Source: Kouleothrix aurantiaca (GTDB taxonomy: Bacteria; Chloroflexota; Chloroflexia; Chloroflexales; Roseiflexaceae). From it: a DNA stretch of 7,737 nt. Below the pieces are notes generated by a model that did no database searches, was not told where the DNA came from, and worked only from the letters and a program-made list of their open reading frames with translations. Both the position numbers and the translations under genes were made by a program. The DNA lies in NCBI GenBank assembly GCA_001399705.1, contig LJCR01000087.1, forward strand, positions 1 to 7,737, given 5' to 3'. This document shows, one piece after another, positions 1 through 3,922 of this stretch (position 1 is its first letter; every line of letters starts with the position of its first letter).

Positions 1-2185
1 CCGTGTGCAGGCCGCTCACCATGGGCCGCAGATCCAGCGACGAGCTGGTAACGCGGCCGATCTGGCTGATCGCGTCAAGCTCGGCAATGCGCCGCTCGCG
101 GTCGGTGAACAGGCGAATATTCTGTACGCCCAGGGCAAGCTGGCTGGCGACCGTGCTGAGAAAGGCCATTTCGCGCTCGCCGTAGCGGTTGGGCTCGTAG
201 CTCTGCACCGACAGCACGCCCACAATATCGCCGTCGCCCACGAGGAGCGGCACGCCCAGCCAGGAGGCCGATTGCTGCTGGGTGTTGCCGAAAAATGTTG
301 CGACGCTGTTCTTCGGGCGCTCGGCTCGCAGATCGGTGAAGAGCAGTGGCGCGCGGTGTTTGACGATCCCTTCAACCAGGCCACTTTCGGTGGGTGGCTG
401 GTTAATAATCTGAAATTCGCGGATGCCGATGTCGATCATCAGGCCTTCCTGCAGCAGGTTGGCGCTGCTGCGGTAGGTCATTGCGAAAAAGGCATCAAGG
501 GGCAAGAAATCGGTCAGGCAATCGTACACGCCATTCAGCATGTCCTCGATGTTGAGGGTCGCGCTGACGATGTTGCCAATCCGGTTGATGATTGCCAGCT
601 CGGCCAGGCGCTGCTCGCGCTCGTCAAACAGCCGTACTTTTTCAAGCGACACCGCGAGTTGGTTTGCCAGCGTGGTGAGGAACTGAACATCGCGCTCACT
701 GAAGGCATTTGGCCTCAGGCTTTGCGCGCACATCACGCCAATAATCTGATCCTGGTTGCGCAGGGGCATGCCCAACCACGAGCGCACATCGGAAGAACCC
801 AGGCGAATGGGCTGTGTTGGCAGGGTCGCGCGTTCAGCCGGCAGGTCGCGCACATACAGCATCTGGCCCGACTCAATGATCCAGCCGGTCAGGCCGCTGC
901 GCGCAACCGTAGTATGGTGATAGGCGGGGACGATCTTGCCTTCTTCGTTGAACAGCTCGTAGCGCATGGTTTTGTGCTGGCTGTCGTACGAAAGCACGAT
1001 GAAGAAGGGCAGCACGCCCAGGTAAGCTGTGACCTCTTCATAAACGCGCTGCAGCAGATCGTCGAGATCGAGTGTCGACACAGCGGCCGCGCTGGCGCGT
1101 GCAAGCGCGGTCATCTGGGCGGCCTGGCTGCGCGCCTCGTTCAGCAGTTCGAGGTTTTCAAGCGCGTTGGCGGCTTGCTGGGCGTAAATCTCGAGCGCCT
1201 CGACCGTGCGCCGGTTAGGGCGCTGCCGATCGTACGGGTTGTCGACGGAAATCAGGCCGAGCAGGTTACCGCGCGTGCTATACAGTGGAATGAACAGCTC
1301 GTCGCCGGGCTGCCATTCATCCTGAGCGCGCGGTTCGGTAATGGTTGTCAGCGAAACGTCGCTGATATCGACATCTGCAATCAGCTCGTTGAGCTCATCG
1401 TATGGCAGAAAGAAGCTCCGCCCGACCCGAAAGCGTGGGTCGAGGAAGCGCAGCACAACCGCGAGTGGAAGGCGGCCTTGTTTCAAGCGCTCGATTTCTT
1501 CCAGCGGAATGCCTGCCGCGCTGGCGACGCGCATGGTATCAGGCCGATCGCGGTCGACAATATTGATCACAACTTCGCGAAAGGCGGTTGTGTCGGCGAT
1601 GCTAAACGCGATCTGCTCAAGCATTTCGTCGATTGAGCGATCGGCGCGCAATGCCTGGCCAATATCCAGCACTTCTTTGAGCAAGCTGGCGCGCTGCTGG
1701 AGCTGCTCGCGCTGAATAACTGCCCATTCTTCAAACAGGGTGCTGTCGGGCAGGCTGAAGCCGGTGAGAAACTCGTCGCGGTAGAGCGCGACCGCTTCGG
1801 CCAGCCGTTCGGCGCATGTGTCGCAGCGCTCGAGCGCGGGGTGGGCGTGCCTGGCAACGGCTGCGAGCGCGCCGCGAAATGCCGCCACGTCGAGCGTATG
1901 CCCAGGGGCAAGCTGAACATACTGCCGGTCGGCGATCAGCGCGGCCTGGCCGGCCGGGCCGAGTGCGCGGCGCAGACCCGCCAGCACCACGCGCAGATTG
2001 TTGCGGGCGATATCTTCGGGGCTGTCTGGCCAGAGCAAGCCAAGCAGGCTTTCGCGGCGGTGGCGCTGCTGCTCGACCGCCAGGTACGCAAGCAGCGCCA
2101 GCTCTTTGCGCACCCGTAAATCGAGCGTGTGCTCATCGGCAGTGATGCGCGCAGCACCGAGTAGTTCAATAGTGAGGCCTGGCAT
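1..2185 (-). CDS. SARP/BTAD-type DNA-binding domain fused to multiple GAF sensor domains (3' end outside window)
   Basis: The frame is open for 728 codons from the ATG at 2185 to the window edge, where it is still open. Residues 1-95 resemble the OmpR-like winged helix of SARP/AfsR activators: a core around 27-52 (RKELALLAYLAV, then LLGLLWPDSPEDIARNN) and a recognition-helix-like LRVVLAGLRRALG at 64-76. Residues 97-170 match the start of a BTAD domain (LYRDEFLTGFSLPDS at 134-148, then FEEW), but the usual TPR-like remainder is absent. Three GAF domains follow, about 178-345, 365-518 and 535-692, each ending in a helical linker. A further sensor unit begins near 700 (AELDAISQIGRV). The GAF domains probably bind a small ligand or pigment, or dimerise. 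The output is presumably DNA binding, though an enzymatic C-terminus beyond the window is possible. Stop codon TAG lies eight codons upstream of the ATG. TTG at 2197 is the only alternative start, and neither has a clear Shine-Dalgarno. Domain identity is by motif recognition, without a database search. Confidence 0.88.
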   Translation of the reverse strand, partial: MPGLTIELLGAARITADEHTLDLRVRKELALLAYLAVEQQRHRRESLLGLLWPDSPEDIARNNLRVVLAGLRRALGPAGQAALIADRQYVQLAPGHTLDVAAFRGALAAVARHAHPALERCDTCAERLAEAVALYRDEFLTGFSLPDSTLFEEWAVIQREQLQQRASLLKEVLDIGQALRADRSIDEMLEQIAFSIADTTAFREVVINIVDRDRPDTMRVASAAGIPLEEIERLKQGRLPLAVVLRFLDPRFRVGRSFFLPYDELNELIADVDISDVSLTTITEPRAQDEWQPGDELFIPLYSTRGNLLGLISVDNPYDRQRPNRRTVEALEIYAQQAANALENLELLNEARSQAAQMTALARASAAAVSTLDLDDLLQRVYEEVTAYLGVLPFFIVLSYDSQHKTMRYELFNEEGKIVPAYHHTTVARSGLTGWIIESGQMLYVRDLPAERATLPTQPIRLGSSDVRSWLGMPLRNQDQIIGVMCAQSLRPNAFSERDVQFLTTLANQLAVSLEKVRLFDEREQRLAELAIINRIGNIVSATLNIEDMLNGVYDCLTDFLPLDAFFAMTYRSSANLLQEGLMIDIGIREFQIINQPPTESGLVEGIVKHRAPLLFTDLRAERPKNSVATFFGNTQQQSASWLGVPLLVGDGDIVGVLSVQSYEPNRYGEREMAFLSTVASQLALGVQNIRLFTDRERRIAELDAISQIGRVTSSSLDLRPMVSGLHT

Positions 2186-2219: not shown

Positions 2220-2248
2220 GCTAATGGTGTGCTAATGATCCGCAAATG
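2220..2248 (+). promoter_or_regulatory. Three heptamer direct repeats with 11-bp period: candidate SARP operator
   Basis: GCTAATG occurs at 2220-2226 and again at 2231-2237, and GCAAATG (one mismatch) at 2242-2248. The spacers are exactly 4 bp, so the repeat units start every 11 bp, on one face of the helix. Known SARP-family activators such as ActII-ORF4, DnrI and AfsR bind heptameric direct repeats of this period, with the last one about 8 bp before the -10 box. Here the gap to the -10-like TAGAGT is 9 bp. The site lies in the spacer between a SARP-type regulator and the divergent plus-strand genes. The repeat is directly visible; binding by the neighbouring regulator is inferred. Confidence 0.6.
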
Positions 2249-2257
2249 GCGCGGCGC

Positions 2258-2263
2258 TAGAGT
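2258..2263 (+). promoter_or_regulatory. Candidate -10 box for the 2300 gene
   Basis: TAGAGT matches four of six bases of TATAAT and begins 9 bp after the last heptamer. There is no good -35 hexamer; the heptamers occupy that place, as expected of an activator-dependent SARP promoter. Transcription would start near 2270, giving an untranslated leader of about 30 bases. Support is positional only. Confidence 0.35.
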
Positions 2264-2299
2264 AGCCACAGAACACAGCCACCACCCAGGAGCACGACG

Positions 2300-2506
2300 A
2301 TGTCTCGCCCGCCAGCCCAATCCTACCTGCTGCGCCTGTGGCGCGAACACGATGGCGCGCCGCTCCACGCGACGCTGATCCCGGTAGGCCAGCCCAGTGT
2401 GCCGCAGCACTTCGCCACGCTTGAGGCGTTGTTCAGCTTCCTGCATGCACAGGCGGCCACGCGCGTGGTGGCAACACAATCGGATGTAGAGCAATCGGTT
2501 GAGTGA
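2300..2506 (+). CDS. Small hypothetical protein, 68 aa
   Basis: The ATG at 2300 is preceded by AGGAG at 2288-2292 with 7 bases of spacing, a convincing ribosome binding site. The protein is soluble-looking, with no signal peptide or membrane segment. It begins with a beta-strand-like YLLRLWRE (residues 9-16), has an ATLIPVG stretch in the middle, and ends the core with FATLEALFSFL (38-48), a strand-turn-helix pattern. From memory, small proteins of the form YLLRLWR...ATL...F.SLEALF.FL are common in Chloroflexota and Actinobacteria near regulators, but no function is known to me. It is the first gene downstream of the heptamer operator and is followed after 55 bp by the collar-protein gene, so both are probably on one transcript. 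It could serve as a partner or modulator of the regulator; that is a guess. Confidence 0.75.
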   Translation: MSRPPAQSYLLRLWREHDGAPLHATLIPVGQPSVPQHFATLEALFSFLHAQAATRVVATQSDVEQSVE

Positions 2507-2561: not shown

Positions 2562-3590
2562 ATGCCCGATTCATATCTTGGCGAAATTCGTGTGTTTGGC
2601 GGCTCGTTTGCGCCCGCAGGCTGGGCCATGTGCGATGGGTCGCTCGTCTCGATCAGCGCGAACGCTGCGCTGTTTCAGCTGCTCGGCACCACCTACGGCG
2701 GCGACGGAACCAGCAGCTTTGCCCTGCCCGATCTGCGCGGGCGCGCCCCCGTGCATATGGGCCAGGGAAGCGGCCTTTCGCCGCGCGCGCTGGGCGAGCG
2801 CGGCGGCGCAGAAGCGGTTGTGCTGCAAACCGCACACCTGCCGGCGCACAGCCACGCCGCCCTGGCCGACGATACCGTCGGCAACCAGTCCGAGCCCTAC
2901 CAGGGCACCTGGGCGCCCTCGGCGCTGGGCCAGTTTTCTGCCAGCTCCCCCAGCGCTTCAATGCACCCGGCGGCAATTGCGCCCAGCGGCGATGGCTTCC
3001 CGCACGAAAACATGCCGCCATTTCTGGTGCTCAACTTCATTATCTCGCTTGCGGGCGCCTACCCCTCGCCCGACCGCGTCGAGCTCTTCGAGCAGTATGG
3101 AGGCGAGCTTCGCGCGTTTGGCTTTGGCTTCGCCCCGGCGGGCTGGGCGCTGTGCAACGGCCAGCTTCTCGCGATTGCTGGCAACGAGGCGCTGTTCGGC
3201 GTGCTGGGCACACGCTACGGCGGCGACGGCACCACTACCTTTGCCCTGCCCGATCTGCAGGGCCGCATGCCCATGCAGGCTGGCGCGGGCGTTGCGCAGG
3301 GGGCGAGCGGCGGCGAGGAAGGCCACGCGCTGACCATCAACGAGCTGCCGAGCCACACCCACATGCCGCAGGGCAGCATGAACTACGCCGAAGACGACAG
3401 CCCCGCCAACGGCGTGTGGGCGAATCAGGATGCGTTTGCGGCATACAGCAAACGAACACCCGACGCCGCGATGAGCACAAACGCGATTGCCAGCACCGGC
3501 AGCAACCAGCCGCACGAGAACATGTCGCCCTTTCAGGTGGTGAATTACTGCATTGCCCTGCAGGGCGTGCCGCCGAGCCAGGCGGCCTAG
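2562..3590 (+). CDS. Double tail-collar-domain protein (microcystin-dependent-protein type), 342 aa
   Basis: Two tandem copies of the phage-tail-collar domain typical of microcystin-dependent protein (Mdp-type) proteins are fused in one chain. Copy 1 spans about residues 5-166 and copy 2 about 179-336. Both carry GE[IL]R.FG...APAGWA.C[DN]G, YGGDGT..FALPDL.GR, an LP.H.H motif (93-98 and 262-267), and end in PHENM.PF.V.N. The usual family protein is a single domain of about 170-180 residues. Collar domains form trimeric beta-rich knobs in phage fibres; bacterial homologues of this type are of poorly known function, possibly exported or surface-associated, although no signal peptide is visible here. 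The start at 2562 is fixed by AGGAG at 2552-2556; a longer frame from TTG at 2499 would overlap the preceding gene. There are no capsid, tail or integrase genes nearby, so a prophage is not supported. Confidence 0.9.
   Translation: MPDSYLGEIRVFGGSFAPAGWAMCDGSLVSISANAALFQLLGTTYGGDGTSSFALPDLRGRAPVHMGQGSGLSPRALGERGGAEAVVLQTAHLPAHSHAALADDTVGNQSEPYQGTWAPSALGQFSASSPSASMHPAAIAPSGDGFPHENMPPFLVLNFIISLAGAYPSPDRVELFEQYGGELRAFGFGFAPAGWALCNGQLLAIAGNEALFGVLGTRYGGDGTTTFALPDLQGRMPMQAGAGVAQGASGGEEGHALTINELPSHTHMPQGSMNYAEDDSPANGVWANQDAFAAYSKRTPDAAMSTNAIASTGSNQPHENMSPFQVVNYCIALQGVPPSQAA
2717..3258 (+). repeat. Internal duplication within the double collar gene
   Basis: The 20-base string CTTTGCCCTGCCCGATCTGC occurs at 2717-2736 and again at 3239-3258, exactly 522 bp (174 codons) apart. 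It encodes FALPDL in both domains. The surrounding GGDG codons are also alike. The rest has diverged, so either the duplication is old or this stretch is under strong codon-level constraint. Confidence 0.75.
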
Positions 3591-3628: not shown

Positions 3629-3922
3629 ATGAGCGACCAGTTTATTGGCGAGATCCGCGCATTTGCAGGCAGCACCGTGCCGGAAGGCTGGTTGCCGTGC
3701 AACGGCCAGATCTTACTCATTCAGGGGCCGTACACGGCGCTGTATAGCCTGATCGGGAATTTCTTTGGCGGCGATGGCAAAACCAACTTCGCCGTGCCGA
3801 ATTTGGGCGCGCGCGTGCCGATTGTGCTCACCAGCGGCGCGAACAGCCCGCTGAGCATCATGGCATCGTGCGCAATCGCGCTGCTGCTGGCGCGCCAGCC
3901 TCAACAGGCAAGCCACGCATGA
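3629..3922 (+). pseudogene. Truncated third tail-collar protein, 97 aa
   Basis: Residues 1-66 are a good collar-domain N-terminus: FIGEIRAFAGS, VPEGWLPCNGQ, FFGGDGKTNFAVPNLGARVPI. After about residue 70 the similarity stops and the chain ends in SIMASCAIALLLARQPQQASHA, with none of the LP.H.H or PHENM..F..VNY elements seen twice in the preceding protein. Family members are about 170-180 residues, so roughly the C-terminal half is missing. No continuation appears in the other two frames, which points to a deletion rather than a simple frameshift. AGGAG at 3618-3622 before the ATG shows that translation initiation is intact. The stop codon overlaps the next gene's start as ATGA (3919-3922). It may be a decaying paralogue, or a retained short form whose translation feeds the kinase gene. 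Confidence 0.65.
3886..3899. repeat. Perfect 14-bp palindrome
   Basis: GCTGGCGCGCCAGC reads the same on both strands. It lies in the non-collar tail of the truncated third collar gene, 20 bp before the kinase start. It could be chance in GC-rich DNA, a protein-binding site, or a mark of the rearrangement junction. Confidence 0.5.

Follow-up and report, generated by a model that had tools for sequence, protein, structure and literature searches.

SARP switches have been described from actinomycete gene clusters. In their operators, according to part of the AfsR report (PMC10936776), repeats lie 11 or 22 bp apart with the last repeat 8 bp from the -10 element, and the afs box of the S. coelicolor afsS promoter is centred at -29.5, over a poor -35. 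The same part of that report describes the AfsR BTA domain (residues 120–270) as seven helices, of which helices 3–7 seat sigma region 4, while residues near 240–263 meet the alpha CTD (PMC10936776). The operator of PimR consists of three heptamers with 4-nt spacers, two repeats being the minimal 22-nt binding box (PMC5930380, in part). EmbR of Mycobacterium tuberculosis (2fez, 2ff4) joins an OmpR-type DNA-binding domain to a BTA fold. Pho boxes likewise step by 11 bp, as direct repeats near the -35, and PhoB-type operators show one consensus for one regulator.

The locus studied here resembles each of these systems in part. Like PimR (SARP-LAL) at pimM of Streptomyces natalensis, it has three heptameric direct repeats with 4-nt spacers; unlike it, it lies outside an actinomycete antifungal cluster, its regulator ends in GAF domains and not in an LAL-type C-terminus, and its operator is predicted, whereas PimR binding was shown (PMC5930380, in part). 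With AfsR and the afs box it shares 11-bp direct repeats, a poor -35 and a distance of about 8 bp between the final repeat and the -10 (PMC10936776, in part). AfsR (8k60) is also the nearest solved fold of the regulator. However, the AfsR system has two repeats and a regulator with complete BTA, NOD and TPR, whereas the regulator here has a partial BTA followed by GAF. EmbR is similar in its DNA-binding and BTA fold (Foldseek E 5.3e-7) but carries an FHA domain in place of the GAF domains. PhoB-type operators share the direct repeats and the 11-bp step near the -35; in the kind of site described below, by contrast, the words vary by locus and a SARP gene is a recurrent neighbour.

Repeats of a probable operator and predicted promoter

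The window, that is, the whole stretch analysed, is one complete contig of 7,737 bases from a draft genome of Kouleothrix aurantiaca, class Chloroflexia of the phylum Chloroflexota (83.5% complete, 7.5% contamination). On its plus strand the heptamers GCTAATG (2220–2226), GCTAATG (2231–2237) and GCAAATG (2242–2248) follow one another at exactly 11 bp, separated by the spacers GTGT (2227–2230) and ATCC (2238–2241). A 9-bp gap (GCGCGGCGC, 2249–2257), of which one base depends on where the heptamer end is set, leads to the predicted -10 element TAGAGT (2258–2263, plus strand), at a distance that recurs in relatives. The preliminary description had read the repeats, the 4-bp spacers and the 9 bp to TAGAGT in the same way, and they are exact in the sequence; the likeness that it drew to Streptomyces SARP sites also holds, as both the step and the spacing from the -10 agree with the published rule (PMC10936776, in part). 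The usual -35 place before TAGAGT (2235–2240) reads ATGATC, which is no good -35, and a consensus scan of 2150–2600 found no plus-strand sigma-70-like promoter.

The repeats stand between two divergent genes. The regulator gene (2–2185, minus strand) runs beyond the end of the contig, and the small gene (2300–2506, plus strand) encodes 68 amino acids and belongs to an as yet unnamed family, here called YLLRLW after its motif, recognised by its open reading frame and by protein and profile searches. An AGGAG (2288–2292, plus strand), seen by eye, resembles a ribosome-binding site of the small gene. All three heptamers lie within the 114-bp spacer, 35 bp from the regulator start codon. With up to three mismatches, the pattern GCWAATG-4-GCWAATG-4-GCWAATG matches once in the window, in none of 200 dinucleotide-preserving shuffles, and once across the 7.8-Mb draft genome to which the window belongs. 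The stretch 2220–2248 is probably a SARP-type operator, at which the neighbouring regulator would bind the three heptamers, hold RNA polymerase on TAGAGT and turn the small-protein/collar operon on.

Recurrence of the layout before the small genes

Relatives of the 68-residue protein were found beside other SARP genes by protein search, and a motif search located a divergent YLLRLW gene within 700 bp in 11 of 75 SARP upstream regions, including those of the window and of L050. The association is also seen from the other side. Among loci fetched through the small gene alone, a divergent SARP neighbour is present in 14 of 40 (held-out set 1, look-alikes still included) and in 18 of 35 (held-out set 2, look-alikes removed).

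For each small gene the test region was the spacer to a divergent SARP gene 50–500 bp away ("div") or else the 350 bp upstream ("other"), and the regions were chosen without regard to repeats. A region passed the layout test when it contained two heptamers at step p that agree in at least 6/7 letters, and a TANNNT 8–10 bp further; in the window (L001), heptamers 2 and 3 are 6/7 identical and pass. The class set was drawn from 50 of the 51 best profile rows (G056 left out) and L050, 51 loci in all, from which L130 (89 bp upstream) and then two look-alikes were dropped. This left 21 div regions, the window among them, and 27 other regions. At step 11 the test is passed by 11/21 div and 14/27 other regions, compared with means of 0.16 and 0.21 and a maximum of 2 in 100 shuffles, and with 0–2 passes for each of the remaining 22 steps from 8 to 30.

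Two further draws served as held-out sets. The first, from the phylum outside the class, took 40 of 54 profile rows in genomes previously unused; one locus, L165, was too short and three look-alikes were dropped. Here 7/13 div and 10/23 other regions pass at step 11, other steps giving 0–2. The second, from another class, took the best 42 rows less two with under 400 bp upstream, less five look-alikes; at step 11, 10/18 div and just 3/17 other regions pass, and again other steps give 0–2. Pooled over the three draws, 55 of 119 distinct upstream regions pass, against 9 of 119 read on the opposite strand, and upstream of other genes (at least 100 codons) the figure is 4/79, one of the four being the small-gene site of L203 again. 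The layout is therefore a directional promoter feature of the YLLRLW family. It extends to small genes with no SARP in the stretch of DNA inspected, of whose regions 27 of 67 pass.

The repeats, their phase, their distance to the -10, their direction and their recurrence before one gene family are read directly from the letters of these loci. For instance, read towards the small gene, L050 (MAG TGS_CHL14) has CATGACG-ATTG-GCTGATG-TGCT-CCTGACG-9-TAGACT, and L002, in the window's own genome, has TGTGACG-TTTC-TCTGACG-9-TATGCT. Further examples are TTTGACG-TTTT-TGTGACG-9-TATAAT (L015), CCTGATA-CTTT-CCTGATA-9-TAGCAT (L013) and GGTAATA-GAAT-GGTAATA-9-TAGACT (L156). Relaxing the identity to 5/7 gives 67 regions with a site, and 10 of these show a third heptamer copy (at least 5/7). 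The test is failed by 64/119 regions (24/52 div, 40/67 other). L028 was scored as a miss; its GCTAACG-4-GTTAACG-9-CATGAT is similar by eye and fails the TANNNT rule.

The regulator

Open reading frame, Pfam, model and fold search together assign to the regulator a SARP-like DNA-binding domain, about half of a BTA domain, and GAF domains. Residues 1–200 were modelled from a 55-sequence alignment with a mean pLDDT of 93.5, and the best solved folds for this part are AfsR 8k60 (E 1.2e-8) and 8hvr (6.9e-8) and EmbR (5.3e-7); PhoB and its kin come next after the SARPs, at E 5.9e-3 and weaker. The N-terminus is thus predicted to have an AfsR-like fold, with the OmpR-type winged-helix DNA-binding domain that a SARP carries. 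The AfsR match covers 200 columns at a TM of about 0.67 with an rmsd of 7.7, so that the parts of the model and of AfsR are not superposed as one body. Pfam Trans_reg_C scores 24.9 bits, just below its cut-off of 26.2, and EmbR is the sole phmmer match at E ≤0.1 among PDB sequences (E 8.3e-4). The predicted recognition helix comprises codons 57–75 (1961–2017, minus strand, EDIARNNLRVVLAGLRRAL), placed by a model helix at 57–82 and by the AfsR alignment.

The BTA domain of the regulator is incomplete. Pfam BTAD is unreported at a maximum E of 10, a search in which the filters drop most weak matches, and the BTA homology ends near residue 166–182. In the model a single helix (149–199) leads into the GAF domains. 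Over residues 1–166 the protein P0005 and the regulator are 95% identical; P0005 then continues with a complete BTAD (98–251) and NB-ARC, the two proteins diverging near window position 1688 (codon 166). On these grounds a complete SARP as the partner is not supported; from sequence and model we would class it as SARP-related, SARP-like in its DNA-binding part, and not as a full SARP.

The joining of half a BTA domain to GAF domains may have arisen by domain swapping in nature or by a misjoin in the assembly. In the window's own draft genome (84% complete, 7.5% contamination), residues 167–708 of P0005 have no near-identical match, the best outside the window being 61%, and no second full copy of the junction DNA was found. 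No precomputed GAF domain is recorded among the best 120 of 785 homologues found. If the fusion is real, the activation mode of AfsR would not be fully copyable, because about half of the BTA domain, with the seat of sigma region 4 and the contacts to the alpha CTD, is missing.

Candidate readers of the heptamers

The letters of the heptamers do not recur as their phase does. Among the 158 class genomes searched, the window alone has the three-heptamer pattern without mismatch; with up to three mismatches 42 of the 158 match, but a reversed control pattern also matches often, and the letters therefore do not form a motif common to a regulon. The idea of such a word was accordingly rejected, the pattern having a single match in its own genome and no clear excess over the reversed pattern in the class. 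Conservation of the heptamers in related spacers had been proposed as a check on the operator. The spacing passes this check, both in its 11-bp phase and in how far it lies from the -10; the letters themselves do not. A scan of genome contigs for close orthologues gave a single locus, L050, at 56% over residues 30–166. The letters vary among loci, as would be expected if each regulator reads its own version.

Alternatively, the repeats could be bound by some other OmpR/PhoB-type regulator, and not by the product of the neighbouring gene. PhoB and its kin do stand next in the fold list, and the layout is present before small genes without a SARP in the examined DNA (27/67). In the first 25 pairs of operator and divergent SARP, moreover, heptamer similarity does not track that of the recognition helix overall (r 0.10, p 0.12), and tracks that of the whole SARP domain at r 0.21 (p 0.009). 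Nevertheless, one regulator would give one word as PhoB does, whereas here the words differ from locus to locus and the exact word of the window is absent elsewhere, and SARP genes are recurrent divergent neighbours. Binding by another regulator is hence improbable.

The residues that might choose the word were sought in 36 of the 52 divergent pairs, those having a site. When heptamer positions 3, 4, 6 and 7 are averaged, the strongest columns are 62, 53, 65 and 66 if the alignment is registered on the motif; if the register is set at 9 bp instead, column 65 ranks first and 66 fourth. Over these 36 pairs the whole recognition helix shows no excess covariation relative to other columns (p 0.07, or 0.32 in the fixed register), and the column that covaries most with heptamer position 4 is outside the helix. 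Serine in place of arginine at regulator residue 65 goes with words ending in TA (4/5 vs 1/31, Fisher 4e-4, a post hoc comparison with relatedness not removed), which argues against another regulator as the reader. AfsR contacts bases through T88 and R92 and the backbone through R87 (PMC10936776, in part). Counted along the alignment, T88, R92 and R87 correspond to V66, G70 and R65 of the window regulator, so the residue linked to the TA-ending words aligns with one that contacts the backbone and not a base in AfsR (PMC10936776, in part). An idea from the first 25 pairs, that Q or V at residue 66 sets base 4, was discarded (G at position 4 in 9/14 vs 1/5, p 0.14, 36 pairs). On the sequence side, then, the covariation gives a hint that the neighbouring SARP is the reader of the words.

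Probable direction of action

The repeats sit in a spacer shared by both genes, 35 bp from the regulator start codon, and their main target could be the regulator gene itself, for which they would serve as a site of autorepression or autoactivation. Several relatives have a TATAAT-like box facing the SARP gene beyond the repeats (TATAAT or TACAAT by eye in the spacers of L002, L013, L015, L028, L052 and L057, at varying distances past the heptamers), and these boxes suggest a possible additional effect of the repeats, from upstream, on the SARP promoter. However, the layout facing the SARP gene passes in 0/21, 1/13 and 2/18 div regions of the three draws (3/52 pooled), against 11, 7 and 10 facing the small gene (28/52), and in the window no TANNNT lies 8–10 bp beyond the repeats towards the regulator. 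Action mainly on the regulator gene is thus quite unlikely, more so than binding by another regulator. The preliminary description had envisaged a SARP-GAF switch that activates the small-protein/collar genes and perhaps adjusts its own gene. The operator facing the small-protein/collar genes is borne out by the 55/119 vs 9/119 count and by the AfsR/EmbR-like fold; the self-control is not, given the 3/52. That the repeats are chance, or a functionless leftover of local duplication, is hardly credible: the words are indeed not conserved in letters, but 0 of 200 shuffles and uniqueness in 7.8 Mb stand against it, as does the occurrence, in three draws, of this layout in this direction ahead of this gene family.

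The preferred reading, a SARP-type operator acting on the small gene, would work as follows. Copies of the divergently encoded regulator would bind the three phased heptamers side by side and cooperatively, their DNA-binding domains aligned on one helix face, with one domain on each heptamer, covering the position at which sigma would contact a -35. The bound regulators would hold RNA polymerase on the -10 TAGAGT, which is without a good -35, and the small-protein/tail-collar operon would thereby be switched on; activation, and not repression, is the effect that we infer. With a start assumed near 2270, the last two 11-bp units would be centred near -28.5, compared with -29.5 for the afs box (PMC10936776, in part). 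The GAF domains, tied to the DNA-binding part by the long predicted helix, may let a ligand or dimerisation set the activity. If the half-BTA fusion is real, GAF-driven pairing of the regulator could substitute for the sigma seat of AfsR.

Small proteins and downstream genes

The small proteins form a large family. Profile A1, built from 18 sequences, has hits in 43 of the 158 class genomes (E 0.01) and in 35 of 400 phylum genomes (E 0.001); in another class, a second profile, A3, has hits in 182 of 396 genomes (E 1e-5). At least 7,181 protein-database relatives were found at E 0.001; among the best 120 of these, none has a precomputed Pfam domain and the named ones are called hypothetical protein. 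The model of the window protein has three strands and one helix (pLDDT 78.7), with no useful fold match among solved structures (best E 1.9). A protein 91% identical to it, P0001, occurs in 8 contigs. Many of the best profile matches (P0125–P0170) have 101–151 residues, about twice the family length, and are possibly tandem copies.

In the window the small gene is followed, 55 bp past its end, by a gene with two phage tail collar domains (2562–3590, plus strand) and then by a short gene with one (3629–3922, plus strand), all assigned by Pfam Collar. The tail of the second protein after its collar domain is unlike the domain repeat of the first, and this gene may be cut down. Because of the 55-bp gap and since no terminator-like hairpin was found in 2150–2600, a shared small-gene/collar transcript is likely, and the small gene and the first collar gene probably belong to one operon.

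The genes next to the small genes differ among loci. At L203, L204 and L206 the following genes encode proteins with PD40, propeller or FG-GAP matches. At another locus (L215, 397–5998, genome G083) the small gene is followed by genes for an AAA protein, eCIS_core, Pvc16_N and a tail sheath, which together denote a contractile injection system, and the small gene of G083 itself carries an 11-bp-phased site (L160). Exported or injected products are thus a candidate theme of the targets, judged from the genes at a handful of loci.

A wider picture is tentative, and we consider it somewhat doubtful as a whole. Chloroflexota SARPs, each with its own 11-bp-phased word, might switch on the YLLRLW family at the head of operons for exported or injected products (collar proteins here, an injection system in G083, surface or secreted proteins elsewhere); the word might follow residues 62, 65 and 66; and the switch of the window might have been re-wired to GAF by a swap of half the activation domain.

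The SARP-type promoter kind is already known. A literature search of titles and the starts of abstracts found no description of SARP operators in Chloroflexota or of SARP/BTAD with GAF, and within its reach neither the phylum, nor the target family, nor the half-BTA/GAF partner appears to have been described for such a switch. The finding is also broader than the single operator first proposed: across the loci compared, the SARP-type promoter layout turns up repeatedly in the phylum upstream of a single small-protein family. If this is true, a second phylum is added in which the operator layout is directly readable, many uncharacterised SARP genes gain target genes, at least 7,181 unnamed small proteins are tied to one promoter kind, and many natural operator–regulator pairs become available for learning how SARPs choose their DNA words. 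Should the word follow residues 62, 65 and 66, it would be possible to deduce from sequence which operator an uncharacterised SARP uses.

A possible duplication was observed at one further locus. On the contig minus strand of L205 (G054), two near-identical YLLRLW genes lie about 3 kb apart, and each precedes a gene whose product has, by eye, a secreted-like start, as if an operon header had been copied.
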